From: Acidobacteriota bacterium
Lineage (GTDB): Bacteria; Actinomycetota; Acidimicrobiia; Acidimicrobiales; RAAP-2
NCBI GenBank assembly: GCA_018970215.1
Contig: JAGWWX010000010.1
Coordinates: 1-36,983 of the forward strand
Length of the DNA: 36,983 nucleotides
Direction: 5' to 3'
A program made the translations under genes and the position numbers. Shown here piece by piece: positions 6,041 to 24,075 of the stretch. Numbering within the stretch: the stretch's first letter is position 1; every line of letters starts with the position of its first letter. The notes beneath the pieces are model-generated. The model ran no database searches, was not told the DNA's origin, and was given only the letters and a program-made list of their open reading frames with translations.

Positions 6041-6099
6041 GGACCTCAGCGGCTCGAAACGGGGAACCTCCTCGTCACCGTGTGCTAACACTTACAGGT

Positions 6100-7110
6100 A
6101 TGAGTCCTTTTTCCGCCATGTTCGGACCAGACGTCACATTCCTCGGAGTCCCCCGTGCCGACCTCGAGAGCTCCGATACATGGGCCAACGCCGCCGCGGT
6201 CATCGTCGGCGCACCATTCGACGGAGGGACGTCGCATCGCTCCGGATGTCGATTTGGTCCAGGCGCCATCCGCACCACGGACTACTTGCCACACGACGGT
6301 TCCCGCCCAAGCTTGGCGCTCGGTGTTGACCCACTCACCGACTTAGGGGTTGTTGACATCGGAGATGTCGAGATGCCGACTGGCGACACGGAGACGGCCC
6401 TCCGACGGCTCGAAGAGACCGTTGAAGTGATAGCACGACGAGGAGTCATTCCCGTCATCTTGGGTGGCGACCACACAATCGCCTTACCGGACGTCACTGG
6501 TATCGCCCGACACGTGGGCTGGGGCAGAGTCGCCGTTTTGCATTTCGACGCCCACGCCGACACCGGCGATACTCAGTTTGGATCTCTTCACGGCCACGGG
6601 ACGCCTATGCGCCGACTCATTGAATCGGGGGCGTGCCGGGGGGATCGATTCTTACAGATCGGACTCCGGGGATACTGGCCCGAGCCCGCAACCCTCGCAT
6701 GGATGGCCCAGCAGGGCATGCGGAGTTTCGAAATGACCGAAATAACGTCTCGCGGACTCGACGCGGTTCTTGATGAAGCGTTCGAGATTGCGACACGGGA
6801 CTGTGATGCTGTCTTTCTCTCGGTCGACGTGGACGTGGTTGACCCTGGTCACGCACCGGGTACGGGTACGCCGGAGCCGGGAGGTCTCACGAGTCGACAA
6901 CTCCTCGATGCGGTGCGGCGTTGTGCGATGGAGCTTCCCCTCGGAGGTATCGATGTTGTCGAAGTCTCTCCACCGTATGACCACGCCGAAATCACGGCCT
7001 ATCTCGCGAATCGGGTAGTTCTCGAAGCACTGGGTGGCATCGCGTGGCGTCGGCGCCGCGAGCGTGGCGAGGCGGTGCGTCAGCCACCTCAGCCTCTCCT
7101 CGATCGGTAG
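6100..7110 (+). CDS. agmatinase-family ureohydrolase
   Basis: About 336 aa. The Mn-binding signatures of the arginase/agmatinase family are intact: GGDH (122-125), DAHAD (150-154) and SVDVD (241-245), followed by a Glu in GTGTPEPGG. The family removes urea from guanidino compounds such as agmatine, guanidinobutyrate, guanidinopropionate or guanidine. The loop HGHGTPMRR is of the SpeB/GbuA side rather than arginase, but the exact substrate is open. The start is uncertain: ATG 6100 is chosen, GTG 6082 and ATG 6118 are in frame, and none has a strong ribosome-binding site. It follows the arylsulfatase by about 60 nt and precedes the kinase gene by 6 nt. Confidence 0.85.
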   Translation: MSPFSAMFGPDVTFLGVPRADLESSDTWANAAAVIVGAPFDGGTSHRSGCRFGPGAIRTTDYLPHDGSRPSLALGVDPLTDLGVVDIGDVEMPTGDTETALRRLEETVEVIARRGVIPVILGGDHTIALPDVTGIARHVGWGRVAVLHFDAHADTGDTQFGSLHGHGTPMRRLIESGACRGDRFLQIGLRGYWPEPATLAWMAQQGMRSFEMTEITSRGLDAVLDEAFEIATRDCDAVFLSVDVDVVDPGHAPGTGTPEPGGLTSRQLLDAVRRCAMELPLGGIDVVEVSPPYDHAEITAYLANRVVLEALGGIAWRRRRERGEAVRQPPQPLLDR

Positions 7111-7116
7111 CACGAG

Positions 7117-8133
7117 ATGGGGAGCACCTTTCGAGAATTCTCCGCATCGCAACAGCGGCGGCATCTTCACTCCATCGCGCGGCGTGCGATCGAACACTAC
7201 GACCTTCCCGTTGACCGTATGGCACTCGTGAATGCCGGGTTCAACTTCACCTACCGGGTGACGTTGACGGACGGTAAAAAGTTTGCATTGAGGCTCAATA
7301 TCAACTCGCGCCGGAGTAGTGAGAATCTCTTTGGGGAAGTGGCGTGGACATCGGCGCTGGCGGAAAACTCACGCGTGACGGTTCCCGTGCCGCAAAGAAC
7401 TCGCGATGGGGATCTTTTCGTTGTACTAGATGATCCGCTGATGGAACGCTCTGTTCCGGCCGTGCTCTACTCATGGCTACCCGGACGCAACCTCGAGGTC
7501 AATAACTCGACTGCTGCGTGGTACCACGCGGGTCAGACCATGGCGACATTGCATGACCATGCCCGCCACTTCAGTCTCCCCGCGGGGGCTGCGGTTCCGT
7601 ACCTTCGTGATGCTCTGTGGGGAACCCCCGACCGGCTCGACCGCCGTCATCTCCCGATTACCAGCGATGATGAGGTCCTGATCCGCGACCTCCTCGGCGA
7701 AATCAACCGACGTCTTGATGATCTCTGGTCGCACGACCGTGGACGGCTCCTCCACGCCGATCTTCATGGCGGAAATATGAAATGGCTGCGGGGGCGGCTG
7801 GCCGTGTTCGACTTCGACGATTGCGGTTGGGGATTGCCCGTCCAAGATCTCGCCACCACGCTGTACTACATCCGCGATATCGGGGACTGCGAAGCGGCGT
7901 TCCTCGACGGCTACGAAAAGGAGTCGAGTGTAGAAATGCCCTCGCCCGGCGAGCGCGAGTGGCTCATTGTCCAGCGCAACCTTCTCTTGCTCAGCGACCT
8001 CGCGGGGACGACAACCCGCGAGCTGCTGGACTTCGTGCCGCGCTACACCAGCAATTCACTCATCAAACTGAGAGCCTTTGCGGCCACGGGCGTGTACCAC
8101 CACGAGGTCGAAGGGGTCGTGCGGAATCGTTAG
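7117..8133 (+). CDS. APH/choline-kinase-type phosphotransferase
   Basis: This 338-aa kinase-like protein has NFTYRV plus FALRL near the N-terminus (ATP-binding part), the catalytic loop HADLHGGN (about 212-219) and the metal motif FDFDDCGWG (about 230). The layout is that of the aminoglycoside phosphotransferase superfamily, including homoserine, choline and SrkA-type protein kinases. It starts 6 nt after the ureohydrolase stop, so the two are probably co-transcribed. The substrate is unknown. Its TAG stop interlocks with the stop of the convergent decarboxylase gene (8130-8133). Confidence 0.85.
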   Translation: MGSTFREFSASQQRRHLHSIARRAIEHYDLPVDRMALVNAGFNFTYRVTLTDGKKFALRLNINSRRSSENLFGEVAWTSALAENSRVTVPVPQRTRDGDLFVVLDDPLMERSVPAVLYSWLPGRNLEVNNSTAAWYHAGQTMATLHDHARHFSLPAGAAVPYLRDALWGTPDRLDRRHLPITSDDEVLIRDLLGEINRRLDDLWSHDRGRLLHADLHGGNMKWLRGRLAVFDFDDCGWGLPVQDLATTLYYIRDIGDCEAAFLDGYEKESSVEMPSPGEREWLIVQRNLLLLSDLAGTTTRELLDFVPRYTSNSLIKLRAFAATGVYHHEVEGVVRNR

Positions 8134-9506
8134 AACTCCGGTTCGGTCAACGTGGCCACGATGTTGTCAATCACGCTCAAGGGAACATCAGGATGCAGAA
8201 AACTGAGGCGCCCACATGGCTCTCCCTCCCACACTGATGGTGCGACAAACGCAATTTGACGCTCGAGGAGCGACGTCGACCAGCGCTGGTAGTCCTCGGT
8301 CGTCCAACCGTGACGTGTGAAGAGAACATTGGTGAGTTCAGGAACCCGCAGAAGTTTCGTTGCGGAGCATCGATGAATGGCGTCGGCGGCGTACTGCGCA
8401 AGATCTAGTCCCGCGTCAATGGCGCGGGCGTATGCCGTGGTCCCGTGAGTGGCGAGTGAAAACCAGAGAGCGAGTCCTCGAGGTCGACGAGAGAGGTGAA
8501 TGGCGTAGTCCGAAGGATTCCACTCCGGTGTGTCGGGGGCGGCGTGCAGCACATCGAGGTACCCGGCATGCTGCGTATGAACCGCCCGTGCAAGATGCGG
8601 TTCGCGGTACAACAGACCGGCGCAGTCAAGGGGCGCAAACAACCATTTATGGGGGTCTATGACGAAACTGTCGGCGTGACGAATTCCCGTTAATCGAGGT
8701 GCGAGGCGGTCGCTCAGGATGCCAGCCCCTCCGTATGCGCCGTCAATGTGGAACCAGAGCCCCTGCGAACGGGCAAACTCCCCCAGTCCCTCGAGGTCGT
8801 CAATAATTCCCGCGTTAGTCGTTCCCGCCGTCGCAACGACGGCGATAATGTTCGCCGCTTGAGGATTGCCCGACATCGCGGCGACGAGATCGGCACGCGT
8901 CAAGCGGTGGTCCGACGTTGGGACCACAAACGCTTCCAATCCCAAAATATGCAAGGCGGCGCCGACAGAGCTATGGGACTCCTCACTGACCGCAACGCAG
9001 AGACGATGGCGATCAATTTCGGGATGCCGTGCCGCGCCGATGTCTCGTGCCACGGTTAAGGCGGACAGATTGGCAATGGTGCCGCCCGATACGAATGCCC
9101 CACCGGAGCCGGCGGGCATGCCCGCCGTCCGAGCCAGGAATTCAAGTGTGTGGTTTTCCGCGACGACCGCACCGGCGCTCTCCAACCAACTCGTTCCATT
9201 GAGTCCCGAACACGCCACCACCATGTCGAACAGCAACGACGCTTTCGTGGGGGCGTTGGGGATAAACGCTAAAAACTTCGAGGAGTCAGTCGAGATGACA
9301 TGCTCGGCAAGCTCTCGTATGAACATTTCGAGGACATCATCCGGTGATCGTCCATCAGTGGTGATGAATCCATCCAAATGACGCGGTGAGAGCCCCCGGA
9401 CCGATCCGAAATCAAGCGGCACGGGATCGAGGGCCAAACGCTCCCGACAGTACGCAAAGACACGATCCGCAAAACCTTCATCCAAAGTAAACATGGACGA
9501 CTCCAC
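8130..9506 (-). CDS. PLP-dependent group II decarboxylase
   Basis: The 458-aa product belongs to the aromatic-L-amino-acid/glutamate/tyrosine decarboxylase family. SGGTIANLSAL (phosphate-binding area), HSS at 178-180 (cofactor stacking), HIDGAYGG (253-260, Asp to the pyridine N) and DPHKWLF with Lys287 as the Schiff-base lysine are all present, so it should be active. The substrate (aromatic amino acid, tyrosine or other) is not readable. Starts GTG 9506 and ATG 9494 are both possible, each with a purine-rich ribosome-binding site (AAGGGGG and GGTGGAG). It lies 30 nt after guaB1 on the same strand and is probably co-transcribed. Confidence 0.9.
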   Translation of the reverse strand: MESSMFTLDEGFADRVFAYCRERLALDPVPLDFGSVRGLSPRHLDGFITTDGRSPDDVLEMFIRELAEHVISTDSSKFLAFIPNAPTKASLLFDMVVACSGLNGTSWLESAGAVVAENHTLEFLARTAGMPAGSGGAFVSGGTIANLSALTVARDIGAARHPEIDRHRLCVAVSEESHSSVGAALHILGLEAFVVPTSDHRLTRADLVAAMSGNPQAANIIAVVATAGTTNAGIIDDLEGLGEFARSQGLWFHIDGAYGGAGILSDRLAPRLTGIRHADSFVIDPHKWLFAPLDCAGLLYREPHLARAVHTQHAGYLDVLHAAPDTPEWNPSDYAIHLSRRPRGLALWFSLATHGTTAYARAIDAGLDLAQYAADAIHRCSATKLLRVPELTNVLFTRHGWTTEDYQRWSTSLLERQIAFVAPSVWEGEPCGRLSFLHPDVPLSVIDNIVATLTEPEF

Positions 9507-9536
9507 CTCTACCCCCTTGCAGCGAATGTTTGACGA

Positions 9537-10994
<1,458 letters not shown>

Positions 10995-11056
10995 CTATGA
11001 GCCCCCGAAAAACTAGTTCGCCCGCGACACGCAGTCTGTGGTCGCGGTCGCGCCCC

Positions 11057-11062
11057 TATCGT
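11057..11062 (+). promoter_or_regulatory. -10 hexamer TATCGT for the hydrolase gene
   Basis: TATCGT, then 7 nt, then GTG at 11070. An imperfect palindrome (11023-11030 with 11038-11046, CGCGAC/GTCGCG core) lies just upstream and could be an operator or simply a hairpin. Confidence 0.4.
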
Positions 11063-11069
11063 GGCGGTC

Positions 11070-11747
11070 GTGAATGTTCTGTTGGTTCCCGGATACTGGC
11101 TGACCGGTGACTCATGGGCGCCGATTTCCGCCGCGCTCGCGGCCGCCGGACACCGGCCAATCGCCGTGACCCGTCGAGGGGATACGTTGGCGGAGCAGAT
11201 TGAGTACCTCGGTGCTCTGCTCGACGAACTAGGGGAACCAGTAGTTCTGGTGGGCCACTCGGCGGGCGGACCAATATGTCATGGCGTCGTCGACACGCGG
11301 CCCACGAAGGTAGTGCGCACGATCTATGTCGACACCTGGCCGGGGAGCGACGGATGTGCCGTGAACTCCGGACTACCGACCCATGACGGGTATATCCCGC
11401 TGCCGGACTGGAGCGCCTTTGACGACGCCGACCTCGTCGACCTCACCGACGACCTGCGGTCGGCATTTGCGGCAATGGCAGTCGCCGAGCCCGCGCGAGT
11501 AGACACCGACACGCTCACGCTGATGAACCCTGCGCGTCGAGCAGTGCCCATCGACATCATCGCGTGTGAGTTCACGCCCGATCAACTTCGTGCGTGGGCT
11601 TCAGAAGGCGCCGACGTCCTCAAGGAACTGCTGACGATTGACGATGTTCGATTCCATCATCTCCCGACGGGACACTGGCCGCAACTGACGAAGCCCGCCG
11701 AGCTCGCGCAGCTCATAATTTCACTGGTCGATAACGTCGAACTCTGA
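11070..11747 (+). CDS. alpha/beta hydrolase
   Basis: About 225 aa. It starts NVLLVPGYW (oxyanion region), has the nucleophile elbow GHSAGG with Ser64, and ends with TGHWPQL, the usual catalytic-His context. It is shorter than many relatives but seems complete. The start is set at GTG 11070 because TATCGT lies 7 nt upstream and the family normally begins directly at this first strand. GTG 11061 is the in-frame alternative. It is likely a cytoplasmic esterase or related hydrolase. The substrate is unknown. Its end is 4 nt from the convergent membrane-protein gene. Confidence 0.88.
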   Translation: MNVLLVPGYWLTGDSWAPISAALAAAGHRPIAVTRRGDTLAEQIEYLGALLDELGEPVVLVGHSAGGPICHGVVDTRPTKVVRTIYVDTWPGSDGCAVNSGLPTHDGYIPLPDWSAFDDADLVDLTDDLRSAFAAMAVAEPARVDTDTLTLMNPARRAVPIDIIACEFTPDQLRAWASEGADVLKELLTIDDVRFHHLPTGHWPQLTKPAELAQLIISLVDNVEL

Positions 11748-11751
11748 GACG

Positions 11752-12579
11752 TTAACTCACGACGCGTGCCGAGCGATAGAGCACGACTCGCACTGAAGAC
11801 TGCAGGGCATTGAGACCAATGACCATGGCGAAGAAAATCAGGACAGCGGCGGCTCCGGCTACGCCGACCGCACCTCGCGCCATCAGTGACGCGGTCGAGT
11901 ACGTCCCGACGTAGTACCCCGCTCCCACCGCGGCGGCGATCGGCACTAGAAGTGCGGCTGTCACTGCTATCTGCAGGATGATATTTGACGCAATCGTCAC
12001 TCGGGGATACTTCGCCAGCAGTGTGGCGGAACGCTTCAGCGAATCGACAACAGGAAGTTCCTCAAAGGCGAGGATCGGAGTGATGTAGTAGGTGGCTCCC
12101 GCCCACGCAAAAAATGAGGCGTGTTGCACGATGCGCCCAAGAGTTCCCCCCAGGGCATTACTCACTATCCGCATCACGGCACCGACGGTCGCAGAAAATG
12201 CAACCCACCCGACTATTCGAACCCACTTCGATGACGCCATCTTTAAGGCGTGCGAGAGCGCAAGCGACTCGCCCCGCAAGGCGGCACTCAGCCCATACGT
12301 CAAGGCGACGTTGAACCAGCACCACAGGACGCCTGTCAAGAAAAACACTACGAAGAACTCAATGGCGACTATCAGAACGCCAGCGGACTGCGCGTCCGAC
12401 AACGTGGAAGTCACCATCAGTGTGGGAGCCGCCACCCCGCCCCACAACACCACCGTTGCAACGAGCGCAGCAAACGGCCATGCGAGAAAACGAGGGTGAA
12501 CCCGTAATACTCCGTAGGCCTCACGCAGTATTCGACGTGACTCATCGACGGTGTTGCCGTAGTGTCGCGAATTCAGCAC
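11752..12579 (-). CDS. multi-pass membrane protein (DUF6159-like)
   Basis: The 275-aa protein has a short cytoplasmic N-terminus and about six hydrophobic segments, including paired helices FAALVATVVLWGGVAAP and GVLIVAIEFFVVFFLTGVL. A conserved-looking central segment has ITPILAFEELPVVDSLKRS, a pattern of the DUF6159-type integral membrane proteins. The function is unknown. The start is GTG 12579 because AAGGAG (12585-12590) lies 5 nt upstream. The longer reading from 12663 would add a polar tail without support. Confidence 0.8.
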   Translation of the reverse strand: MLNSRHYGNTVDESRRILREAYGVLRVHPRFLAWPFAALVATVVLWGGVAAPTLMVTSTLSDAQSAGVLIVAIEFFVVFFLTGVLWCWFNVALTYGLSAALRGESLALSHALKMASSKWVRIVGWVAFSATVGAVMRIVSNALGGTLGRIVQHASFFAWAGATYYITPILAFEELPVVDSLKRSATLLAKYPRVTIASNIILQIAVTAALLVPIAAAVGAGYYVGTYSTASLMARGAVGVAGAAAVLIFFAMVIGLNALQSSVRVVLYRSARVVS

Positions 12580-12786
12580 ATTAACTCCTTGGCCTGTCAT
12601 TAATTTAGGCGAGCCGTATCGACATTCAGCGAGGCAACGAGGAAAGAAACGACGGTTTTGCAACGCAGCTTTCAGTTCTTACGTCCTTCTTACCTCCTTT
12701 CATGTCACACCCCCTCGGTACCGTAAGAGTGTTGCTTCTCCGTCACGCTGTTCGAGCGAAGTACGGGAGATCTGAAAGGAGAACCT

Positions 12787-13263
12787 GTGGGTTCGATGTC
12801 CGGCGCAGTTTTTATCGGGGAGTTTCATCCCAACGACGGTGATCTCATTCCAAGTCACGTCATTCAAATCATTGAAGGGGACTCCTTGGCCTTCGCAATC
12901 TCCCCGCTTTTCGGAGGCAGCCACCAACGCTGGCTGATGGTGGACCCCTCACGTGCCCGTGAAACCCTGATGGCGGCGGCGGCACTGGTGTTGCCCACCT
13001 CGGCTCATCATCCTCTGGCCGCCGAGGTGGACATTGACGCATCCCGAGTCAGCACGGATGACTTGGCGGCGTTACGCCGGACGTTCGAAGATGTCCGCCC
13101 CGGCGTTCTCGCGGTCCTCGGGCACGGATGTGTCATTTCGACCGACGAACTTGTGGACCTCGACGACAAGGACATCGCAATCTTTGAACCCGTGTACAAG
13201 AGAACTTTCAGCCACTGGAGCAATGACAACGTGATTTTTGACAATCGCGGCGGACAACAGTAA
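12787..13263 (+). CDS. orphan protein, first gene of a phosphatase operon
   Basis: This 158-aa protein is not recognised. It is soluble, mixed alpha/beta and acidic, with GAVFIGEFHPNDGD at the start, a helix-rich middle and VLAVLGHGCVISTDEL near residue 110. The start is GTG 12787 (AAAGGAG 5 nt upstream). ATG 12796 is also in frame. It is followed after 9 nt by the phosphatase gene. Its leader, GAAAGGAGAACCTGTGG, matches that of the orphan gene at 22657 in 15 of 17 positions. Confidence 0.75.
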   Translation: MGSMSGAVFIGEFHPNDGDLIPSHVIQIIEGDSLAFAISPLFGGSHQRWLMVDPSRARETLMAAAALVLPTSAHHPLAAEVDIDASRVSTDDLAALRRTFEDVRPGVLAVLGHGCVISTDELVDLDDKDIAIFEPVYKRTFSHWSNDNVIFDNRGGQQ

Positions 13264-13272
13264 GGAGACAAT

Positions 13273-13884
13273 TTGACCACCCTCACCCCCGAAGCAATTA
13301 CGACGTGGCACCGGAGACTCTGCGACGTCACCCCGTGGCTCGTCATTTCCGGTGACCTACCGCAACGACGAAAACTAGCCATTGAAAAACTCCGCGAGTG
13401 GGTTGAGGCCGGCATCACTGACATTGTGGACGTGCGCGGTGAATGGTCCGACGCTCGACTCGTGGCGAGCATTGCTCCCCAGATTCGCTACCACTATCTC
13501 GGTACTCACGACGACGGTACCGAGCAGAGCGATCAGTGGTTTCACGACGGCATTGCGGCAATGCGTGCCGCTCTCGAGCATGAGAACGCCAAGGTCATGG
13601 TTCACTGCCACATGGGAGTCAATCGCGGTCCGTCCATGGCCTTCGCCTTCTTACTCGCACACGGGTGGGAGCCCATAGCTGCCCTCGATGCGATTCGTGA
13701 CGCTCGACCAATTGCGGGCATCATCTACGCGAGCGACGCACTGCGAGCACTCCACGCCATCCGTACAGAAAATGGAACAGCCCACAGCGATGATGCCGAA
13801 CGTGTGGAGCAGTGGTTTGACGATAACGAGATTGATATCGAAACCATTATTCGCCGTATTCGAATAACAGGGAGTGAAGACTAA
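13273..13884 (+). CDS. dual-specificity/tyrosine phosphatase-like protein
   Basis: The 203-aa product carries the cysteine phosphatase loop HCX5R: HCHMGVNR at 111-118, with nucleophile Cys112 and Arg118, followed by GPSMAFAFLL. Asp79/Asp80 in THDDGTEQSD are candidates for the general acid. This is the dual-specificity phosphatase fold, which removes phosphate from proteins, lipids, sugars or RNA ends. The start is TTG 13273, supported by AAGGAG (13262-13267) just upstream. It lies in an operon with two orphan genes, the next one overlapping its stop by 1 nt (TAATG). Its partner kinase or substrate is not evident. Confidence 0.85.
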   Translation: MTTLTPEAITTWHRRLCDVTPWLVISGDLPQRRKLAIEKLREWVEAGITDIVDVRGEWSDARLVASIAPQIRYHYLGTHDDGTEQSDQWFHDGIAAMRAALEHENAKVMVHCHMGVNRGPSMAFAFLLAHGWEPIAALDAIRDARPIAGIIYASDALRALHAIRTENGTAHSDDAERVEQWFDDNEIDIETIIRRIRITGSED

Positions 13885-14195
13885 TGAACTACGTGCAACT
13901 ACAGCAGCGAAAGAACGGCGACGTCTGGCTCAACCTCCACTGTCGAATTGATGAGAATGGCGATTTCCGGATTGAGGGTCACGATCTCTCACCCACCAGC
14001 GAGTACGAATGGTGCACCATTGTGGCCCAAAACGACTTCCCTCAACTCTGCGCGCTGTTTGGTGCCGCCACCATGGATGAGCTCTTCGACGTGATCGTTC
14101 GCGACTACCTTCCCATCGAAGGCGATGGTCTCGAGAAATTCATTCGCGATAGTGACGTACCCTCACGCTTCTCGAACTACATCCACATGGACTAA
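13884..14195 (+). CDS. orphan small acidic protein, third gene of the phosphatase operon
   Basis: The 103-aa acidic protein is not securely assigned. It has an N-terminal beta-rich part (DVWLNLHCRIDENGDFRIEG) and a C-terminus ending LEKFIRDSDVPSRFSNY. Its general layout recalls small actinobacterial proteins of immunity/antitoxin-like size, but I cannot name a family. The ATG overlaps the phosphatase TAA by 1 nt. Its own TAA interlocks with the recD stop (CTAA at 14192-14195). Confidence 0.75.
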   Translation: MNYVQLQQRKNGDVWLNLHCRIDENGDFRIEGHDLSPTSEYEWCTIVAQNDFPQLCALFGAATMDELFDVIVRDYLPIEGDGLEKFIRDSDVPSRFSNYIHMD

Positions 14196-15976
14196 GGGCT
14201 GACACTTCGTCGAGCGGTCGCCAGAGCCGCCGACAGCCCCGTGAGTCGAGCAACTGGTCGGGTGATGGCCAAGCGAAGATCTTCAGCAGTCGCAATAACG
14301 GTGACCTCTTCTTTCGCTCTCGTAAGAGCGGTGTAGAGGAGCTCACGTGATAGAAGTCGCGTCCCCGGCGTCACTGACACAATGACGCGCTGAAACTCAG
14401 AGCCCTGTGACTTATGAATCGTCATGGCGTACCACGGCTGCCAGTGTGTGATAGCTGCAGGACGAAGACGAACCGGAAGTGGACCACCCGTGTCAAAGAC
14501 TGGTCCATTCGCCGACTCGCGAATGACCCCGTCGTCGCCGTTCACCAGCTTCGCCCCCCGATCACTTTGGGTAATCAGAACGGGCGTCCCCACAGTGCGC
14601 GGAGAGCCACCCACACTGATGTTGTCGGCATCTGCGACTCGTCGCACCCACCAGGTACGCCCCAGTGGACCTTGATGTTGCGCGACCAACACCATGACGC
14701 TCGTGAGTAAGTCTCGGAATTCTTCCGATGAGGACTGCACATCTGACGCCGCAGCTCGTAACTGACGCGAACGGGCCACAACCTTCGACATAACGTCATT
14801 GGGTACATCAGGCGCCGACGCGGTGATGGGAATCCACGTCACACCATCTACTGAATGCGATAGCAAGGAGATGGCTTCGTCGGCATTGCCTTCACGTACG
14901 GCCTGAAAGAGACTCAAGAGCACATCGCGATTCGTGCCACTGACCCGCCGAACAACCGTGAGCTCAGTGCCGGCAATCTGGCCGTGGCGCATCGCATCCA
15001 CAATGTCCCCCATGGCCGAACCAGCGTCGACACTCTGTAGCTGGTGAGGATCTCCCACGAGAACAATGCGAGTGGTGGGAGAGATCGCCCGCATGAGCTC
15101 GTTCATCAACGCCACATCAACCATCGACGTTTCGTCGCATATCACGATGTCCGCCGCGATGTAGTCGTCCCTTTGACGACGCGGTTGCACTGGCGTGATC
15201 CCGAGGAGAGAGTGGATTGTCGTCGGTGTGACGCGGCTCAGTAGTTGCGTCTTCGTTGCTGCGGGGAGGTCAATGGCTTGAACGGCTGCTTGAATTGCTT
15301 CGCCCATCCGTTGCGCCGCTTTCCCGGTCGGAGCACAGAGCCGAACACGGGGAAACGAGTCAACGCCCACAAGCGAGGCTTCGAGGGCGGCCAGAAATCG
15401 GGCGATAGTGGTCGTTTTCCCGGTGCCCGGTCCGCCAGCGAGAACGTAACACCGGTGAGCCCACACGCCGAGTGCCGCCGACAGAGGGAGATTCTCACTC
15501 TCATTGGTGGCAAAAATTTCGGCGGCTACCGCCGGAAACTGCTCCGGCATGACGACGGCGTCGTTTGGTAGTGGAGCACAGAGTCGCTGCGCGATATCGG
15601 TCTCCATGGCGAAGTATCGGTCAAAGTAGAGACTGTCGTGTCGAACGCATAGTGGCTCGACGTCACCGGAGTCGCGGTGAGTGATCGGTGTGAGATGTTC
15701 CAACCATTCCGTCACGCTCAGTCGTTGCAGTTCCACGGGGAGCTTTTCTGATTCAGGTAGTGCCGCAACTCGATCGAGCGGGAGACACGTACCACCGCGC
15801 GAGAGTGCAATCAGAACGAGAGCGGTTGCCCACAAAACCGGTTCAGGAAGTTCACCGTAGTGTCGATCGAGCGACGCAAGTATTTGAGCGGCTCCCCGTG
15901 GCAGGGTGTGTAGATCTTGATCATCATCGACGCGGCCGCTCAGGGCATCAACAATCTCACGAATGACGCTTCGCAT
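14192..15976 (-). CDS. recD: RecBCD exonuclease V subunit RecD (5'-3' helicase)
   Basis: This 594-aa protein is close to the usual RecD size. An N-terminal RecB-interacting domain (about 1-160) precedes the SF1B helicase core: Walker A GGPGTGKT (181-188), Walker B ICDETSMVD, motif III VLVGDPHQLQSVDAGSA, TIHKSQGSEF and YTALTRAK near the C-terminus. RecD is the fast 5'-3' motor of RecBCD at double-strand ends. The ATG at 15976 overlaps the recB TAA by 1 nt (TAATG), so translation is coupled. It is the last gene of recC-recB-recD. Confidence 0.97.
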   Translation of the reverse strand: MRSVIREIVDALSGRVDDDQDLHTLPRGAAQILASLDRHYGELPEPVLWATALVLIALSRGGTCLPLDRVAALPESEKLPVELQRLSVTEWLEHLTPITHRDSGDVEPLCVRHDSLYFDRYFAMETDIAQRLCAPLPNDAVVMPEQFPAVAAEIFATNESENLPLSAALGVWAHRCYVLAGGPGTGKTTTIARFLAALEASLVGVDSFPRVRLCAPTGKAAQRMGEAIQAAVQAIDLPAATKTQLLSRVTPTTIHSLLGITPVQPRRQRDDYIAADIVICDETSMVDVALMNELMRAISPTTRIVLVGDPHQLQSVDAGSAMGDIVDAMRHGQIAGTELTVVRRVSGTNRDVLLSLFQAVREGNADEAISLLSHSVDGVTWIPITASAPDVPNDVMSKVVARSRQLRAAASDVQSSSEEFRDLLTSVMVLVAQHQGPLGRTWWVRRVADADNISVGGSPRTVGTPVLITQSDRGAKLVNGDDGVIRESANGPVFDTGGPLPVRLRPAAITHWQPWYAMTIHKSQGSEFQRVIVSVTPGTRLLSRELLYTALTRAKEEVTVIATAEDLRLAITRPVARLTGLSAALATARRSVSP

Positions 15977-18900
15977 TAGTGCGTCCGTCCTTCAAAGAAT
16001 TCACTAACTTCCGTGATGAGTGCCTCCGGGAATGTCATGGACAGCACTCCGGACTGTGAGCTGGAAGGATCCATACCCCGTACGAAGAGATACGCCGCGC
16101 CGGCAATGTGTTCGGAATATTGGTACTCCGCCAATCGACTCCGTAAGTAGCGGTGCAGAGCAACAACATAAATCAAGGCCTGGAGGAAGTAGTGGTTGTG
16201 CGTCATGGCCGACGTCATTGTGGGAACGCTGTACTCCTCTTGCCCCGCTTCATTTCGTAATCGATTTGTCTTGTAGTCAACAACAAGAAACTGTGGGGTG
16301 TCATTTTCAGTCCACGACAACACGGCGTCCATGGAGCCCGTCATCGAACCCACCACAGTGGTGTCATCGATAGCCAGCGACTCAATCCACGGGCGAAACG
16401 TCTCAACATCACGAAGATGTTTCGTCACAATGGCGTGAAGATCTCGCAGCGCGCGCGGGTTGGGTATGGAAAAGTCGAATCCAAGTTCCGGGACGATTCG
16501 ACCCGTTGCAAAATCGGTCAGCGTGCGACTACCCGCGATGTCGCCCATCGACGTCATCACTGCTCGCCGTACCAGTTCGACCGCTTCATCAAATGGAAAG
16601 TCAGTAGGAACCATGCCTTCAGCGGCAACGGCCGTGTGCAATTGTTCTCGGATCGCCAACGTGAGATCGGGAGTCGTCACATCGAGATACTCCATAACGT
16701 GGTGAATGATGCGTCCAACCTGCGCGGATGACGCCAGTTCAACAAACCCGGAGGTCGGTAGCACGGCCATAACGCCGTCCGATCCTTCGGGTTCCGTATC
16801 GGCCTCTTGTTGAACCACCGATCCACTCACTCGAAAGAACGACGACAGTTGCGTATAGGAATTTTGACGGCTCGGTGTCGGTAGGACTCTTGACATCGTG
16901 GCCAACACACGAGCGGGCGAACTACCAGACTGGCGGTCGGGTACTCGGGGCGTCTCCGAAACATCAATCGCCTGGACCGCAAAGTGCGCGGGTGATGTCA
17001 GCGCGAGAGCTTCCACTTCGTTGGCGTCGCGGATAAGTGGTGAGCTATTCGACGCTCCGGTCCACGTCCAAATGATGTTCATGACTTTGGCTCGGGTCAT
17101 TGCTACATACCCCTTGCGACGCTGCTCCGCGAGGGCAAGATCACGCTTAATGGCCGGTCCATTACGTCGGGATGCGCCGCCGGGAACGACACCCTTCGTG
17201 CCCGCCGACACGTCAAGAATTGTGGAATTCCTTCCCTGCCGATGCAGACGATACGTGGCCACGTTCTTCTTCGTGGTCACATATGTTGAGAGAAATGGGA
17301 TGAGAACAATCGGGAACTCCAGGCCCTTGGCTTTGTGGATTGTCATAATGCGAACTGTCTTCTTGTCACTCTCTACTCGACGAGCCCACGACATCGATGC
17401 CGAGTCCGTGCTCGCCCCATCGCCGTCATCGGTTCCGGCGGACATCTCCAAAAAATGTGACAACTGAGCAAGACTGTCGCTGGCTCGCGTCCGCAGGACC
17501 TCAGCGACATGAAGGATGTCCGTAATATGCCGTTCGGCCAACGGTCGTTTTGTTGTTCGAATAAGTATCTGCGACTCCTCCACCACCGTGTCAAAGAATG
17601 CGTCGCGGTGTTCGTTATACAGAGATCGCCAGTCGAGCAGATTCTGCTGAAAGGGGGCGAGCCACGACTCGTCGTCTCGATGCCGAGCAACATCAATCCG
17701 ACTCGCACCACCAAACCAGGAGTGGGCGTAGAGGCGAACATTGCTCGCTTCGCTCGGTCCGGAGAGTGCGTTGAGAAGGTACCGCCACTGGCGCGCCGCT
17801 TCTGAGGCGAAGACGTTATTGCCTCCGACAACGGTGCTCGGGATACCAGCCCGACCGAGCTGCTCGGCGATCCACGTTCCGAACGAGTTTTTCGCCACCA
17901 AAATGACAATGTCGTCAAGCTCGACAGGGCGTACCGCGCCGGGATCGACTCTCACCCTGGCCTCATCAGGAATGACCTCTTCCAAAAGGCCGGCGACCAC
18001 ACGAGCAACGTCGGCGAACGCTTCGTGTCGAACAGACGCAGCTTTCGTCGCTTTCACTCGACGAAAGCGCCAGCTCGGACCCAGACCGTTTGCCAGCGAT
18101 AGTTCGCCCGCGGCCGTGACGGGCACAAAATCGATATGCGCCGGCATAACATCACCATCAGCAATCGGCATACCGTCGAAACTCACGCCAAAGTTCTTGG
18201 TGAAATTCTTCTTCGAGGCCTCAGATCCCGACGTATACCGTTCAAAGAAAAGGTTCTCCGCTTCGATGAAGTTGGTGGTCGACCGGAAATTATGAACGAG
18301 CTCGTACTTCTGAGCTGTTGCAATCGCCTCTTGATAGACCTGCACATCACCGCCCCGGAAGCCATAGATCGCTTGCTTTGGGTCACCTACAACGACAAAC
18401 GCCTCTAAGAATCCGCACTCCGCAATACGACAAAAACTCTCCCACTGCAGCGCGTCAGTGTCTTGAAACTCATCAATCAGTAGCGCCCCGATTGACTGCG
18501 CAACGAGCTCACGATCAGCCGCATTCTCCATTCGGACGGCCAAGCGAGTCAAGAGGTCGTCGTAACTCGTCACACCGAGCTGGCGCTTACGTTGGTCTAA
18601 TGCTGTTCGGACGCGTCGCGTGATGTCAGCAATCAGTTCGGTGATGTGATTGGAATCAACCGCCGTTATCTCGGCCGCGGGATTATCCATCATTACCCCA
18701 ATTGACTCATCAAGCCACGTACCAAAACCATCCACCGCGGCAAGTGCGCGCATTTCGTCGGGTGGGAGATTCCGTAATACATCGGCGAGTAGTGATGTGC
18801 GCACCTCGGCCGTGTTCAGTGCCGGTTCGAGTTCGCTCACCGACTCACCGAGGGCAAGCAGAGTTCTCTGGGCAAAACCGTGGATAGTGGAGATGCGAAT

Positions 18901-19197
18901 TTGTGAAAAGTTTGCGAGATGTTGGCGAACTTGAGCAGCCTTCTCGCCGTCGTGTTCGTCATGCTCAGCGTGGCGTAGCACTTCGAGGAGGTGTCGACGA
19001 ATGCGAGCGCGTAGTTCCGTTGCGGCGGCTTTCGTAAAGGTAACGACGACAATTTTTTCCGCGGGCACAATATTGTGCATCAGGAGTCGAGCCACGAGAC
19101 GCTCAATGGTGTAGGTCTTCCCACTCCCGGCACTCGCCTCAATAGCAATGAGTTCGCCCTTGTTAAGCGGTGTGGATTCGGGGTCGAAGACGGGCAT
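15976..19197 (-). CDS. recB: RecBCD exonuclease V subunit RecB (helicase/nuclease)
   Basis: The 1073-aa product has UvrD-like SF1A helicase motifs: Walker A ASAGSGKT (21-28), LLIDEFQDTD, VGDPKQAIYGFRGGD, MTIHKAKGLEFP and YVAMTRAK. A C-terminal nuclease domain carries the metal-binding Asp in GSMDAVLSW and the DYKTN motif. RecB is the 3'-5' motor and the only nuclease of the complex. The true start is ATG 19197, preceded by GGAGGAGG and overlapping the recC TGA by one base. The TTG immediately upstream is not needed. It is slightly shorter than E. coli RecB, as usual in actinobacteria. Confidence 0.97.
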   Translation of the reverse strand: MPVFDPESTPLNKGELIAIEASAGSGKTYTIERLVARLLMHNIVPAEKIVVVTFTKAAATELRARIRRHLLEVLRHAEHDEHDGEKAAQVRQHLANFSQIRISTIHGFAQRTLLALGESVSELEPALNTAEVRTSLLADVLRNLPPDEMRALAAVDGFGTWLDESIGVMMDNPAAEITAVDSNHITELIADITRRVRTALDQRKRQLGVTSYDDLLTRLAVRMENAADRELVAQSIGALLIDEFQDTDALQWESFCRIAECGFLEAFVVVGDPKQAIYGFRGGDVQVYQEAIATAQKYELVHNFRSTTNFIEAENLFFERYTSGSEASKKNFTKNFGVSFDGMPIADGDVMPAHIDFVPVTAAGELSLANGLGPSWRFRRVKATKAASVRHEAFADVARVVAGLLEEVIPDEARVRVDPGAVRPVELDDIVILVAKNSFGTWIAEQLGRAGIPSTVVGGNNVFASEAARQWRYLLNALSGPSEASNVRLYAHSWFGGASRIDVARHRDDESWLAPFQQNLLDWRSLYNEHRDAFFDTVVEESQILIRTTKRPLAERHITDILHVAEVLRTRASDSLAQLSHFLEMSAGTDDGDGASTDSASMSWARRVESDKKTVRIMTIHKAKGLEFPIVLIPFLSTYVTTKKNVATYRLHRQGRNSTILDVSAGTKGVVPGGASRRNGPAIKRDLALAEQRRKGYVAMTRAKVMNIIWTWTGASNSSPLIRDANEVEALALTSPAHFAVQAIDVSETPRVPDRQSGSSPARVLATMSRVLPTPSRQNSYTQLSSFFRVSGSVVQQEADTEPEGSDGVMAVLPTSGFVELASSAQVGRIIHHVMEYLDVTTPDLTLAIREQLHTAVAAEGMVPTDFPFDEAVELVRRAVMTSMGDIAGSRTLTDFATGRIVPELGFDFSIPNPRALRDLHAIVTKHLRDVETFRPWIESLAIDDTTVVGSMTGSMDAVLSWTENDTPQFLVVDYKTNRLRNEAGQEEYSVPTMTSAMTHNHYFLQALIYVVALHRYLRSRLAEYQYSEHIAGAAYLFVRGMDPSSSQSGVLSMTFPEALITEVSEFFEGRTH

Positions 19198-22100
19198 CAA
19201 TCCTCCTCCGTGGTGTCGATGATTTCGGAGATGTCAATGACTCGCGACAGGAGATTTCCCATAGATGAGACAACGTCACCGATTCCCCAACCCTCCAAAG
19301 GGACGTACGCATCAATTTCTCGCACTTCCATGTCGCCAAACAGGAGACGCCACGTCGCCTTACCGAGAAAACGGGGCCAGGGGTTGTGCTTGAAGCCCGT
19401 GTCCTGCCACGTTTCTTCATCGCTGAGCCATGTGTCGGTGAGTTGCGAATCATTTTCAAAGGGAATGGGAGAGGTCAGATTGACGAAATAGAGATCCCCC
19501 ACCTCGTGCAAAATTTCCCGCGCCGCATCGCGATTGACGAGCACATCAAGTCGCTTACTTATGATCTCATCGTCACAAAGTGACACCACGTGCACCTCAA
19601 CGGCCGACGTATCAGGTGTCGACGCTCGAACGGCGAGAGCTTGCACCCATAAGTCAAAGACGTGACGTAGGCGAAGTTTCGCCGTATGAACGTACGGTAC
19701 GACCAGTGTGGAGTCACGTTGCAAAACCTCAATATCGTCAATCACGGTGATGTCACCGAGTGGAATGTGTAAGCGAATCTGAGTCCGTTGCGCATTCTCG
19801 ACAATCGCTTGGTACGCTTCGGCAAACTCTTCAGCTCGGCGCGAGAGGTCCTCCGTACCTCCGAAGAGTTCGGGTGGAATATCTCCACTGTGCACCAGTG
19901 ACTGGCGGGCCACGTCAGTTGGTCCCTTGCCATTCTTCGAATAATCAAATAGTCGGCGCATCACTTGCGGCATTTCCCGCCGACTTATTTCGAGTGCCAG
20001 CTCGTCAAACTCCTCAACTTGCAGACTGTTATCACGAATCCCAAGAGCGAGGTCGAGGTGGGTCCCCACGGGGTCGCGGAGGAAATTCGAGATCTCGCGC
20101 AACGTGAGTTCTCGAAGTGACGACGTCGGAGAAGGAAGTCGAAGTTCTGGTGAGATTCTTTGTGGCGAGGCTCCAATCACAATCTGCTGGTCGAGGTTGC
20201 TATGCGACCATGATCCTTGTATTACTCGGGTGGCGCGGAGTTCGGAGAAAATAGGCGATGCTGGGTCAAAGTTTTCTCGACTAAAGCCATGGCGAGGATG
20301 CCGGACCACGAGCGGGTCGGCACCATTCAGAATTTGCGCCACTGCCTGGCGATACTCCGCAAACGCAGTGCCGAATTCGACTTCTTTGTTATTTGTCAAA
20401 TCGCGATAGGTACGAAAAATGGTGAGTCGCTCCTGTGTGCTGAGTAGAAGCTCACTCAGCCGACTACGTGCATCGTCATGTGGTGCAATATCACCGACGA
20501 TCTTTTCTCGTCGACGAAGATCATCGTGACCCCAATCGGGTCGTGAAAATGCTTCATCGTCAAAGCCCACGACATACACGGCCCGGAACGGCGTCCATCG
20601 CAAGGTATCGGCCGACGTAATCGTTATTCCGCCCGTCAAAAGACGCGATACCCCGCCAGAGGAGCTCCACGAGTCCTCGAGAATGGCAAGGAAGTCCACA
20701 TAGTTGATGTCAACATCAATCGAGTTAGAAATCTCGCGTAGTTCGGTGAGCGCACGCGTTACTCGGGCGGCTTCATGTTGATCGTCGCCCAGCGGCACAA
20801 TCAGCGCACCCACGAACTGATCGAACCACGTTAACCATTCAGAAAGAGAGTGAGGCGTGGTGATGCGGCGAGTGGCATCTTCCAGCACGTCAACAATCTC
20901 TGCAAGATTGCCGAGAAGATCAATCTTTCCAGCGAGAACCTCAACGGGTAGCACGCGGCGAACATCGCGGAGGTTCGGATTGAGTACGGTGACGCCGAGA
21001 TAGAGGCGTTCGAGTCCCGCACGCCACGTGTTGATGTCGCCCAGATCGTTCAGCCCAAACTGGACACGATGTTCAGCTGACAGCCCCCAGCGAATTCCCG
21101 CTTCCTTGGTCCAGGCCGACACGATGTCAAGTTCATCACTACCGAGCCGACGCCGGTTCGCAACTGGCGGCGCTTCGAGTAGTGAAAGTACGTCCGTTCG
21201 AGTACATCGACTTCGAACGACGTTCAGAGCTTGGCGAACGGCGCGGAGATACGCGCCTTCGGCTGTTAATCGTGGGTCGCTGATGCGATAGGCGAGAGAG
21301 GGTTGAGGTGATTCCGTTGCGTCGTAGCGGGGCGCACCAAAGGCGGTACGAATCAATGGAGCAAAAAGCTCGATATCAGAACACACCACCAAAATGTCCG
21401 ATTCATTGAGAGGGTTCGACGGGGCTGCATTCTCCAAATCGTGGCGAATGGCATCCCGGAGTACTTCCGCTTGTCGCATGGGGCCGTGACACCAATGCTC
21501 AACAATGCTCGGCGGCGTCGAATCGAGAGTCTCCTTGACATCGTCTCGGCGCAATGTGTACTGCAGGGCAGAGAGAAGAGACGTCGGTGTGGCGACCTCA
21601 GCTACCCGCCGATCAACAGTTTCGGCTTTCTTGAGTAACTCCTCAATAATTGGCGCGTTGGCGCGAGGTAAGCCACCCCACATCTGCAGGAGTTCACTGC
21701 GAAAACCGGCACCCTTGCCCACATTTTCCACGACCTCGTCATCAAAGCCGTGAACTAAGAACATCGTGACGTCAATGTGGCGGGCAATCGCCACAATCGT
21801 GTCGACGTATCGCGTGCCTCCGGGGAACGCTGTAACTCCGAATACGCTCAGGCGTTCGCGATTCGGCCACTCATCGCGGAGAGGAATGTCTAATCCAGAA
21901 AAACGATCCAAAGCGGCCGACCAGCGCTCCGGTGGACTTGGCAGGTCAATATGACGTCGGACCGCCCGCCACACATCGGACTGCTCCTTTTCGATACGTG
22001 GCCATACATCGTGCTCCTCCTCGGTAGGAGCCTCTTTCGTAACAACCTGGCCAGTCGCCCACGACTCAACCATGTCGGGACGCCATACGTGATAGCGGTC

Positions 22101-22538
22101 AAAGAGATCGGCGAAGTGGCGCGCCCGAGCCATCACTACCTTGCCGTCGTCGGAAAGAATCGGACGGGCGACACTGTCACCAGGATGATTCTGGGCCCAT
22201 TGCATCACGTGAAACGTCAGTTCAGGCAGCGACCACGGATCGCTCGCTCGGCCGTGGATTTCACGTAGATGAGGGAGCAGTATTCGCTGTGTCAGAGCGC
22301 CGGGAAATTCGTGTCGCCAGTTAGCAACGATGCCGTCACGTCGCCCGCGCGTTGTCGCTCCGACTCGTTGCCCCAGTTCATGTCGAAGCCACTGTCGTGT
22401 GCCAACCGACGGCGTGACTACCCATTCGGGCGCTAACGCCCTCTCCAGTACATCGCCTTTCGTCAGTGGGGTGGAGAGGTGCGCAGCGAGTTCATCGACG
22501 AGCTCGGCGTACGACGACCGAATGACAACCTTTAACAC
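19197..22538 (-). CDS. recC: RecBCD exonuclease V subunit RecC (Chi recognition/scaffold)
   Basis: This roughly 1113-aa protein has the RecC layout: an N-terminal inactive helicase (with VTPSVGTRQWL), a central helicase-like part (DILVVCSDIELFAPLI, GGITITSADTLRWTPFRAVYVVGFDDEAF) and a C-terminal inactive nuclease-like domain. RecC splits the duplex and reads Chi. The start is uncertain: GTG 22538 gives the usual family beginning (VLKVVIRSSYAELVDELA), while a TTG at 22586 would add 16 residues. No ribosome-binding site or -10 stands out for either. The order recC-recB-recD is the mycobacterial one. Confidence 0.93.
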   Translation of the reverse strand: MLKVVIRSSYAELVDELAAHLSTPLTKGDVLERALAPEWVVTPSVGTRQWLRHELGQRVGATTRGRRDGIVANWRHEFPGALTQRILLPHLREIHGRASDPWSLPELTFHVMQWAQNHPGDSVARPILSDDGKVVMARARHFADLFDRYHVWRPDMVESWATGQVVTKEAPTEEEHDVWPRIEKEQSDVWRAVRRHIDLPSPPERWSAALDRFSGLDIPLRDEWPNRERLSVFGVTAFPGGTRYVDTIVAIARHIDVTMFLVHGFDDEVVENVGKGAGFRSELLQMWGGLPRANAPIIEELLKKAETVDRRVAEVATPTSLLSALQYTLRRDDVKETLDSTPPSIVEHWCHGPMRQAEVLRDAIRHDLENAAPSNPLNESDILVVCSDIELFAPLIRTAFGAPRYDATESPQPSLAYRISDPRLTAEGAYLRAVRQALNVVRSRCTRTDVLSLLEAPPVANRRRLGSDELDIVSAWTKEAGIRWGLSAEHRVQFGLNDLGDINTWRAGLERLYLGVTVLNPNLRDVRRVLPVEVLAGKIDLLGNLAEIVDVLEDATRRITTPHSLSEWLTWFDQFVGALIVPLGDDQHEAARVTRALTELREISNSIDVDINYVDFLAILEDSWSSSGGVSRLLTGGITITSADTLRWTPFRAVYVVGFDDEAFSRPDWGHDDLRRREKIVGDIAPHDDARSRLSELLLSTQERLTIFRTYRDLTNNKEVEFGTAFAEYRQAVAQILNGADPLVVRHPRHGFSRENFDPASPIFSELRATRVIQGSWSHSNLDQQIVIGASPQRISPELRLPSPTSSLRELTLREISNFLRDPVGTHLDLALGIRDNSLQVEEFDELALEISRREMPQVMRRLFDYSKNGKGPTDVARQSLVHSGDIPPELFGGTEDLSRRAEEFAEAYQAIVENAQRTQIRLHIPLGDITVIDDIEVLQRDSTLVVPYVHTAKLRLRHVFDLWVQALAVRASTPDTSAVEVHVVSLCDDEIISKRLDVLVNRDAAREILHEVGDLYFVNLTSPIPFENDSQLTDTWLSDEETWQDTGFKHNPWPRFLGKATWRLLFGDMEVREIDAYVPLEGWGIGDVVSSMGNLLSRVIDISEIIDTTEED

Positions 22539-22656
22539 GCTGTGGGCTTTTTGCTGCGAATCACACTCAGTACGGTACCGAGCCAATGTGACACACCGTG
22601 GGGTTTGGTGTCACAGCCTTCCGGCACAGTTGATTTATCTCTTGAAAGGAGTACCG

Positions 22657-23124
22657 GTGGAGTTCACCATGTCTGCCCAGCTCACCATTGGGTCGTTGCC
22701 CAACCCGGAAGAAATCGATCGCTACGTTGCGCCAATTAATGGATTTACCTACGCCGAACAAAGCGACGACGGAGTGAACTGGCATATTTCTGAGTTTTTT
22801 GTGGAGGATGGCGCATCCTGGAGCTGCGTACTTCCTGACATTGCCTTTGTAGAAGGTGTGCTCTTCGCCGCGTGCTACATCCACGACGACGTCGATGCCG
22901 ACGACGCCCTCTCGGCCTTAGCCGAAGTTGTCAACGGTGAAACGGAGTTCACCGAAGCGCTCGGTCAGTTTGCCATCACTACGGCGCAGCGGGTGGCTGC
23001 GAAATACCACTGGACGGTGACCCGCTGGCCCCACGCAGACTTCTTTGCTTCATGCCATCTCGTTGATTTCCCCGCCGACACGCTCTACTTTCTCCACTCA
23101 TATAGCGATCTACACGACGAGTGA
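22657..23124 (+). CDS. orphan acidic protein beside recC (YbjN/antitoxin-size, unassigned)
   Basis: This 155-aa strongly acidic protein is not recognised with confidence. It shows alternating beta segments (VNWHISEFFVEDGASWSCVLPDIAF, cut here by my reading into two strands) and a helical stretch rich in Asp/Ala (DDVDADDALSAL), and it ends LHSYSDLHDE. The start is GTG 22657 with AGGAG 5 nt upstream. ATG 22669 is in frame. It is divergent from recC across about 118 bp and is followed after 27 nt by the F420-type oxidoreductase. Its leader closely matches that of the orphan gene at 12787. Confidence 0.75.
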   Translation: MEFTMSAQLTIGSLPNPEEIDRYVAPINGFTYAEQSDDGVNWHISEFFVEDGASWSCVLPDIAFVEGVLFAACYIHDDVDADDALSALAEVVNGETEFTEALGQFAITTAQRVAAKYHWTVTRWPHADFFASCHLVDFPADTLYFLHSYSDLHDE

Positions 23125-23151
23125 ACTACGGTGAGTCGGACGAGGTGAGTT

Positions 23152-24075
23152 ATGCAACCATTCCGATTTGCCGTTCAAGTTTCAAAAGCCGATTCCGCGA
23201 CTTCATGGAGAAATCTGGCACGCAAAGTCGAAGATCTCGGATACTCCACGCTTTTCATCCCCGACCACTTTGACGACCAATTCGGCCCACTCGTTGCGCT
23301 GACGGTCGCGGCCGAATCGACATCACGACTTCGCGTCGGGTCACTCGTTTTCGGCAATGACTACCGGCACCCCGTTGTTCTCGCTAAAGAGATTGCCACC
23401 TTGGCGGTGATGTCCGACAATCGGGTGGAGTTCGGGCTGGGCGCGGGCTGGATGTCAAGCGACTACCGGTCGTCGGGAATCTCCGAAGATCGACCGGGGG
23501 TACGCGTCAGCCGAATGGAAGAAGCCCTCACCCTCTACACGTCGTTATGGACTCACGGGACAGCGTCACTCGACGGGGAGCACTACCACGTTACCGACGC
23601 CGTGCTGACGCCGCCCTTGGCACAACGACCACCCATCATCATTGGCGGCGGGAGTCCTCGGGTACTCGGTATTGCCGCGCGACACGCCGACATCGTGGGG
23701 GTGAATCCCAACCTCGCCGCAGGATACATAGGTCGAGAAGTCATTGAGTCAACGCAAGCGGAGTACTTCGACGAGCGAGTGCGCTGGGTTGCGGAAGCGG
23801 CGGGCGACCGATTTGCCGAACTAGAGCTACAGATACTGACGTTCTTTGTCACAGTAACTAATGAACGACAGAGCGCAATTGACGGACTCGCGGCCATGAT
23901 GGGCGTGACGAGTGAGCAGGTTGCCGAAACGCCCGTGGCGCTCATTGGCTCTATTGACCATATGGTCGAAACGCTGCAGATGCGGCGCGAGAGATTTGGG
24001 TTTAATTACGTTGTGGTGCATGAAGCCGAAATGGAAGCGTTTGCCCACGTGGTGGCAGCCCTCACGGGGCGTTAG
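23152..24075 (+). CDS. F420-dependent LLM-class oxidoreductase
   Basis: The 307-aa product has the luciferase-like monooxygenase barrel: FRFAVQVS at the N-terminus, LGYSTLFIPDHF, RLRVGSLVFGNDYRHP, VEFGLGAGW and a final hydrophobic strand NYVVVHEAEMEAF. It most resembles the actinobacterial TIGR03621-type F420 family (MSMEG_2516-like). It would transfer hydride with cofactor F420 to an unknown substrate. GAGGTGAG lies just before the ATG. The last 14 nt overlap the convergent MBL gene. Confidence 0.9.
   Translation: MQPFRFAVQVSKADSATSWRNLARKVEDLGYSTLFIPDHFDDQFGPLVALTVAAESTSRLRVGSLVFGNDYRHPVVLAKEIATLAVMSDNRVEFGLGAGWMSSDYRSSGISEDRPGVRVSRMEEALTLYTSLWTHGTASLDGEHYHVTDAVLTPPLAQRPPIIIGGGSPRVLGIAARHADIVGVNPNLAAGYIGREVIESTQAEYFDERVRWVAEAAGDRFAELELQILTFFVTVTNERQSAIDGLAAMMGVTSEQVAETPVALIGSIDHMVETLQMRRERFGFNYVVVHEAEMEAFAHVVAALTGR

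Follow-up and report, generated by a model that had tools for sequence, protein, structure and literature searches.

The closest described systems to the locus analysed here are those centred on ARG. In the sections of PMC9503650 drawn on here, ARG is combined with a rhodanese-phosphatase, ARPP and chaperones of the TY-Chap, vWA or SseB type, and section 3.8 of that paper predicts that R-P phosphatases form conflict systems together with the products of ARG, ARPP, vWA and TY-Chap genes. The anti-ADP-ribosylation role of the ARG systems is, in the same sections, the authors' prediction, and section 3.8 proposes a substrate for such phosphatases and demonstrates none. NERD is not named in that paper, and PMC11833690, in the part drawn on here, is not about a phosphatase of the type considered below. 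A literature search in general terms returned no paper on the gene pair described in this work.

The locus consists of three genes, here called P1, P2 and P3, the second of which encodes a phosphatase. Its likeness to the ARG-centred systems (PMC9503650, in the sections mentioned) lies in the presence of a phosphatase of the same superfamily together with small accessory proteins. It differs from them in that no ARG, ARPP-1 or TY-Chap match is found beside P2, and in that P1 and P3 match none of the named accessory families held by Pfam. Since neither ARG nor ARPP-1 lies beside P2, the window, by which we mean the whole 37-kb contig analysed, is not a member of an ARG system. The genome to which it belongs is Acidimicrobiia-like and comprises 1.54 Mb in 119 contigs.

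The three-gene locus and its phosphatase

The three genes are encoded on the same strand: P1 (12787-13263, +; 158 aa, GTG start), which belongs to an unnamed family; P2 (13273-13884, +; 203 aa, TTG start), a DSP-type cysteine phosphatase carrying HCHMGVNR (C112/R118); and P3 (13884-14195, +; 103 aa, ATG start), an acidic protein of a second unnamed family. The coordinates of the open reading frames agree with the original prediction of three tightly linked genes, P1 and P2 being separated by 9 nt and P2 and P3 overlapping by 1 nt. Shine-Dalgarno-like stretches can be read before P1 (AAAGGAG, 12775-12781, +) and before P2 (TAAGGAG, 13261-13267, +, overlapping the P1 stop codon), and a Shine-Dalgarno-like GGAG precedes the P3 start. 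The description of P3 as acidic was borne out by its composition (19 D+E vs 8 K+R). P1 and P3 are real genes and not chance frames, because both have open-frame relatives, P1 in the genus-mate G101 (31% over residues 2-148, E 1e-17) and P3 in G010 (45% over residues 4-96, E 3e-18). In GC and GC3 the three genes resemble the 17 other measured genes of the window, the overall GC of P3 being slightly low (0.532), and thus the locus bears no sign of recent foreign DNA. Upstream are found genes for IMPDH, an alpha/beta hydrolase and a DUF6159 protein (11752-12663, -; 49.6 bits vs a cut-off of 27), the last divergent from P1. At the other end the 3' ends of P3 and of the convergent recD overlap by 4 nt, the minus-strand genes that follow being recD, recB and recC by Pfam (RecD_N; UvrD and PD-(D/E)XK; Exonuc_V_gamma and RecC_C).

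P2 had been read as an HCX5R phosphatase with an intact loop, and this reading stands: the loop, VHCHMGVNRGPS, is complete, and the protein passes the cut-off of Pfam DSPc (PF00782; 36.7 bits, cut-off 33.5). With the dual-specificity phosphatases it shares the loop and this score. D80 is a candidate general acid, identical in both rows of alignment A1 and placed 32 residues before C112, as in VHR; the solved structures closest to P2 by sequence are those of DUSP3/VHR. P2 differs from the dual-specificity phosphatases in forming a bacterial clade of its own. Of two related phosphatase families, PTP-SAK (PF22784) is matched at the borderline (27.1 bits against 27), the P2 of G101 remaining under the cut-off at 14, and Tc-R-P (PF22785) is matched under the cut-off (19.4 against 27). 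A weak Rhodanese match is also obtained, so that P2, with DSPc above the cut-off, qualifies as the rhodanese-phosphatase-superfamily phosphatase that is one trait of the ARG systems. Most members of the clade carry HCHMG[VI]NR[GA]PS; among the 30 rows of the P2 tree, CX5R is kept in all 30, the preceding histidine in 29 and HCHMG in 28. Several rows of this tree have long branches, L092 most of all; two 3-kb stretches (L047, L048) were used in the tree only, and a third (L052) was left out as a duplicate of L024.

Strong matches to P2 were found in 15 of 150 genomes of the family, a count that leaves out five weak matches (E 1e-4 to 1e-6; G027, G034, G047, G055 and G058) and rises to 20/150 at E up to 1e-3. 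In the species collection the clade accounts for 24 loci, one of them a 46-residue fragment from Leucobacter (L040), and the named relatives come mostly from MAGs labelled actinobacterium or Acidimicrobiaceae. P2 belongs to the accessory and not to the core gene set. One relative, 53% identical to the P2 of the window, occurs in a MAG labelled Acidobacteria (L028), which may reflect transfer or mis-binning.

The P1 family and its adjacency to the phosphatase

The P1 family was delimited from sequence alone. Searches with the single sequence gave 3/150 genomes of the family, a two-row profile 8/395 genomes of the class, of which G213 was dropped as doubtful (E 9e-4, the match falling within a frame of 445 aa), and a seven-row profile 5/346 genomes of the phylum. 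Ten genomes result: the genome of the window, G101, G152, G009, G081, G087, G280, G031, G168 and G739. Most members share, by eye, P[ST]H...[LI].EG followed further along by a tryptophan. The original prediction that P1 and P3 match no nameable family is upheld, since neither reaches the cut-off of any family in Pfam, PHROGs, NCBIfam or PADLOC, seven P1 members having been scanned with Pfam. Two candidates for P1 were rejected: DUF6939 (E 0.018, 15.1 vs 27 bits, in one of seven members) and PF10610 (Tafi-CsgC), matched under the cut-off (0.002-0.003) by one divergent relative. A search of PDB sequences with P1 gave no result.

P1 adjoins a P2 relative in three of 28 distinct phosphatase loci, these being the 34 stretches collected minus six duplicates, with the Leucobacter fragment dropped. 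Besides the window, the pair is found in G101, of the same genus (L025; P1 1679-2134, P2 2131-2739, a 4-nt overlap), and in G152, of another family of the class (L073; P1 5641-6111, -, and P2 6408-7115, +, divergent and 296 nt apart). The G101 genes are arranged as TY-Chap3, a gene for a 130-aa protein, P1 and P2, where P1 overlaps each of its neighbours by 4 nt and the TY-Chap3 gene matches PF22552 with 49.5 bits against 27; in G152 the pair adjoins a PLD/ResIII/DUF3427 helicase; and in the window the neighbours are recBCD. P1 and P2 thus recur as a pair, adjoining in two other genomes with different flanks. P2 is present in six of the ten P1 genomes (the own genome, G101, G152, G009, G081 and G087), adjoining P1 in three, and is missing from G031, G280, G168 and G739. 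When the window is left out, the chance of two adjacencies among five is approximately 1.6e-5, a rough value that assumes about one gene per kb. Such a recurrent and differently flanked adjacency is the only feature of the locus that exceeds rough chance, and it supports a functional P1-P2 pair in which P1 would be an accessory protein. As G101 is a genus-mate, its pair may share ancestry with that of the window. In the P2 tree the phosphatases linked to P1 do not form a single clade; two changes are needed, and the linkage may, as far as the sequences go, have had a single origin.

We tentatively favour, at somewhat less than even confidence, a two-component module in which an active phosphatase is joined by the accessory protein P1 in a conflict or repair role, P3 being a passenger. 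A somewhat less probable reading, and one to be taken seriously, is that P2 is a solitary house phosphatase, acting on phosphoproteins or small molecules and moving about the chromosome, P1 and P3 being incidental to it. This is favoured by the 25 of 28 phosphatase loci in which P1 is missing and the 27 of 28 in which P3 is missing, by the relatives up to 64% identical that genus-mates hold in different surroundings, and by the several P1 relatives that are located elsewhere, but it accounts poorly for two further P1-P2 adjacencies with different flanks, one of them overlapping, at a frequency above rough chance. Since P1 is missing from 25 of the 28 loci and several of these phosphatases stand alone among metabolic genes, two of them (L018, L096) beside genes that by eye resemble those of electron-transfer flavoproteins, P2 does not need P1. 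The genome searches are samples, mostly of MAGs with short contigs, and some stretches end at contig ends (e.g. L021, L031), so that a missing neighbour in these is not proof of absence.

In three genus-mates, G009 (L076:4652-5905), G087 (L075:1-1220) and G081 (L074:4414-5710), P1 adjoins an S51-peptidase-like gene, recognised by eye in the three genomes and by a Pfam match from G009, and P2 lies on a different contig from P1. This gene is a second recurrent neighbour of the P1 family and, like the four P1 genomes that lack P2, speaks against the favoured module.

P3, recBCD and the extent of the unit

P3 relatives were found in 5/150 genomes of the family, 4/395 of the class and 4/296 of the phylum, eight different genomes altogether (the own genome, G010, G026, G037, G065, G216, G506 and G586), and a search of genome_contigs with P3 gave no result. 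Of the seven P3 genomes other than G586, three hold P2 (own, G010 and G506).

It had been proposed that the three genes make one functional unit, which would comprise a phosphatase and two regulators or substrates. The 9-nt gap, the 1-nt overlap and the RBS-like stretches do suggest co-transcription and coupled translation, but P3 adjoins the phosphatase in one of 28 loci, that of the window, it lies on a different contig from P2 in both G010 and G506, and it was found together with P1 in the own genome only. A unit of three is therefore improbable; with no P3-P2 linkage in any other locus P3 is probably an incidental neighbour of P2. The expectation that homologues of the small genes accompany the phosphatase away from recBCD thus holds for P1, in G101 and G152, and fails for P3. 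The packing of the locus against recBCD likewise looks incidental, because none of 12 recD stretches of relatives (the best 12 of 26 outside the window, the other 14 being short, weak helicase matches with E 6e-7 or worse) holds P1, P2 or P3, and a recBCD link was rejected as a conserved feature.

In G026 a 301-aa protein (L016:6801-7709) carries a P3-like domain with a TY-Chap3 domain N-terminal to it; it is the only fusion seen in the P3 family. TY-Chap3 (PF22552) itself gave no match at E up to 1 in P1, P3 or those of their relatives that were scanned.

A relationship between P1 and P3 was rejected (hhalign probability 0.1%), and their AlphaFold models are too weak for either fold to be placed. 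The P1 model, from two rows, has a pLDDT of 60.6, four other models ranging from 31.6 to 42.0, and the P3 model, from one row, has 58.8. Foldseek with the P1 and P3 models returned nothing under 1e-3, and the best VIA-align scores are in the noise range, both for P1 (Z 4.5 with 7ktr_C, 77 aligned, 3.7 A) and for P3 (Z 3.0 with 7kra_H, 70 aligned, 4.0 A). The top seven for P1 include 6f5b_A, titled WGR domain, and 2ra8, which is presumably also a WGR structure, neither standing above unrelated rows. A PDB sequence search with P3 gave chance-level rows only. Each of the two models opens with a meander of four strands, after which come helices, and they are too weak for a chaperone fold to be claimed.

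Neighbourhoods of the phosphatase clade and the proposed module

The company kept by P2 relatives resembles in part (ARPP, TY-Chap3, vWA) that of the systems in section 3.8 of PMC9503650, as far as that section describes them. ARPP-1 (PF20208) adjoins a P2 relative in L032 (8.6e-61) and a second phosphatase copy in G152 (4.3e-61), the latter phosphatase being 47% identical over residues 21-161, and, as noted, TY-Chap3 precedes the P1-P2 pair of G101; in these points the clade is like the ARG-centred systems. The ARPP-1 linkage needs two changes in the P2 tree and may, on the sequences, have arisen once. Genes for NERD and an SF1 helicase lie near P2-type phosphatases in L031 and L093, and parts of helicase genes in L029 and L030, L030 and L031 coming from one genome bin. 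In the genome of the window no ARPP-1 was found, and its sole ARG (PF03747) match lies on a different contig (G000:C58:55273-56088), two points that count against the reading favoured here. ARG and ARPP-1 adjoin each other in G168, which has no P2, and in G506, whose P2 is on another contig, an adjacency that these two genomes share with the published ARG systems. No Nudix-HTH or WYL regulator was seen among the main genes family-scanned (6082-24075).

A vWA-like gene, ARPP-1 and a P2-type phosphatase are neighbours in an Acidimicrobiales MAG (L032:1183-4987) and in G152 (L092:3436-6029), with no ARG seen close by. The gene upstream of ARPP-1 in L032 falls just under the VWA cut-off (22.9 against 23.8), and the corresponding gene of G152 is vWA-like by eye, with no Pfam match at 1e-3. 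In both L032 and L093 the phosphatase has a gene of the histone-deacetylase family downstream of it.

It is very doubtful, and slightly less credible than a unit of three genes, that the locus descends directly from an ARG-centred ADP-ribose system through loss of ARG and ARPP-1. The P2 relatives that adjoin ARPP-1, the ARPP-1 end on the contig that carries the P1 relative of G280 and the TY-Chap3 gene upstream of P1-P2 in G101 are in its favour; against it, the P2 of the window groups with genus-mates without ARPP-1, and the own ARG lies elsewhere and is, by eye, without such company. The idea of a toxin-antitoxin or self-limiting toxin module is the least plausible of all: small adjoining genes, a sporadic distribution and the position of a G152 copy about 3.4 kb from a gene pair that by eye is similar to a TA pair of the CopG/MazF type would suit it, but none of the three proteins reaches the cut-off of a toxin or antitoxin family in Pfam or NCBIfam or of any PADLOC family, no relative of the trio was found among the plasmids or viral contigs searched nor, for P1 and P3, among the phages, and neither P1 nor P2 needs the other as antidote, because each often occurs without it (25 of 28 phosphatases without P1, four of ten P1 genomes without P2).

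In the favoured module of P1 and P2, P2 would be a catalytically active cysteine phosphatase from the DSP branch of the rhodanese-phosphatase superfamily, in which C112 would accept the phosphate, R118 and the loop would bind it and D80 would be the likely acid. P1 is predicted to be a non-enzymatic accessory protein that may bind P2 and that would target or stabilise the phosphatase or its substrate, by analogy with the role predicted for other small neighbours of the clade (TY-Chap3, vWA-like). P3 would be a passenger in the operon. Because phosphatases of the clade are linked in other loci to genes of predicted conflict systems that involve ADP-ribose or nucleic acids, P2 would most likely remove a phosphate from a modified macromolecule or from a group derived from a nucleotide or a sugar, and would most likely serve in repair or upkeep after attack. 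The pair of the window may act in a field similar to that of the ARG systems. A bolder version, which we consider rather unlikely, would place P1 in a family of subunits, as yet undescribed, that have a targeting function and became attached on more than one occasion to a single clade of cysteine phosphatases. The result would be an ARG-less and ARPP-less variant of the ADP-ribose or nucleic-acid conflict modules, with P1 recognising a damaged or modified macromolecule and P2 stripping phosphate from it.

If P1 is not a dedicated partner, P2 would be an ordinary phosphatase with chance neighbours; if it is, P1 would offer a way towards the substrate of phosphatases whose clade is otherwise found beside genes of predicted conflict systems.
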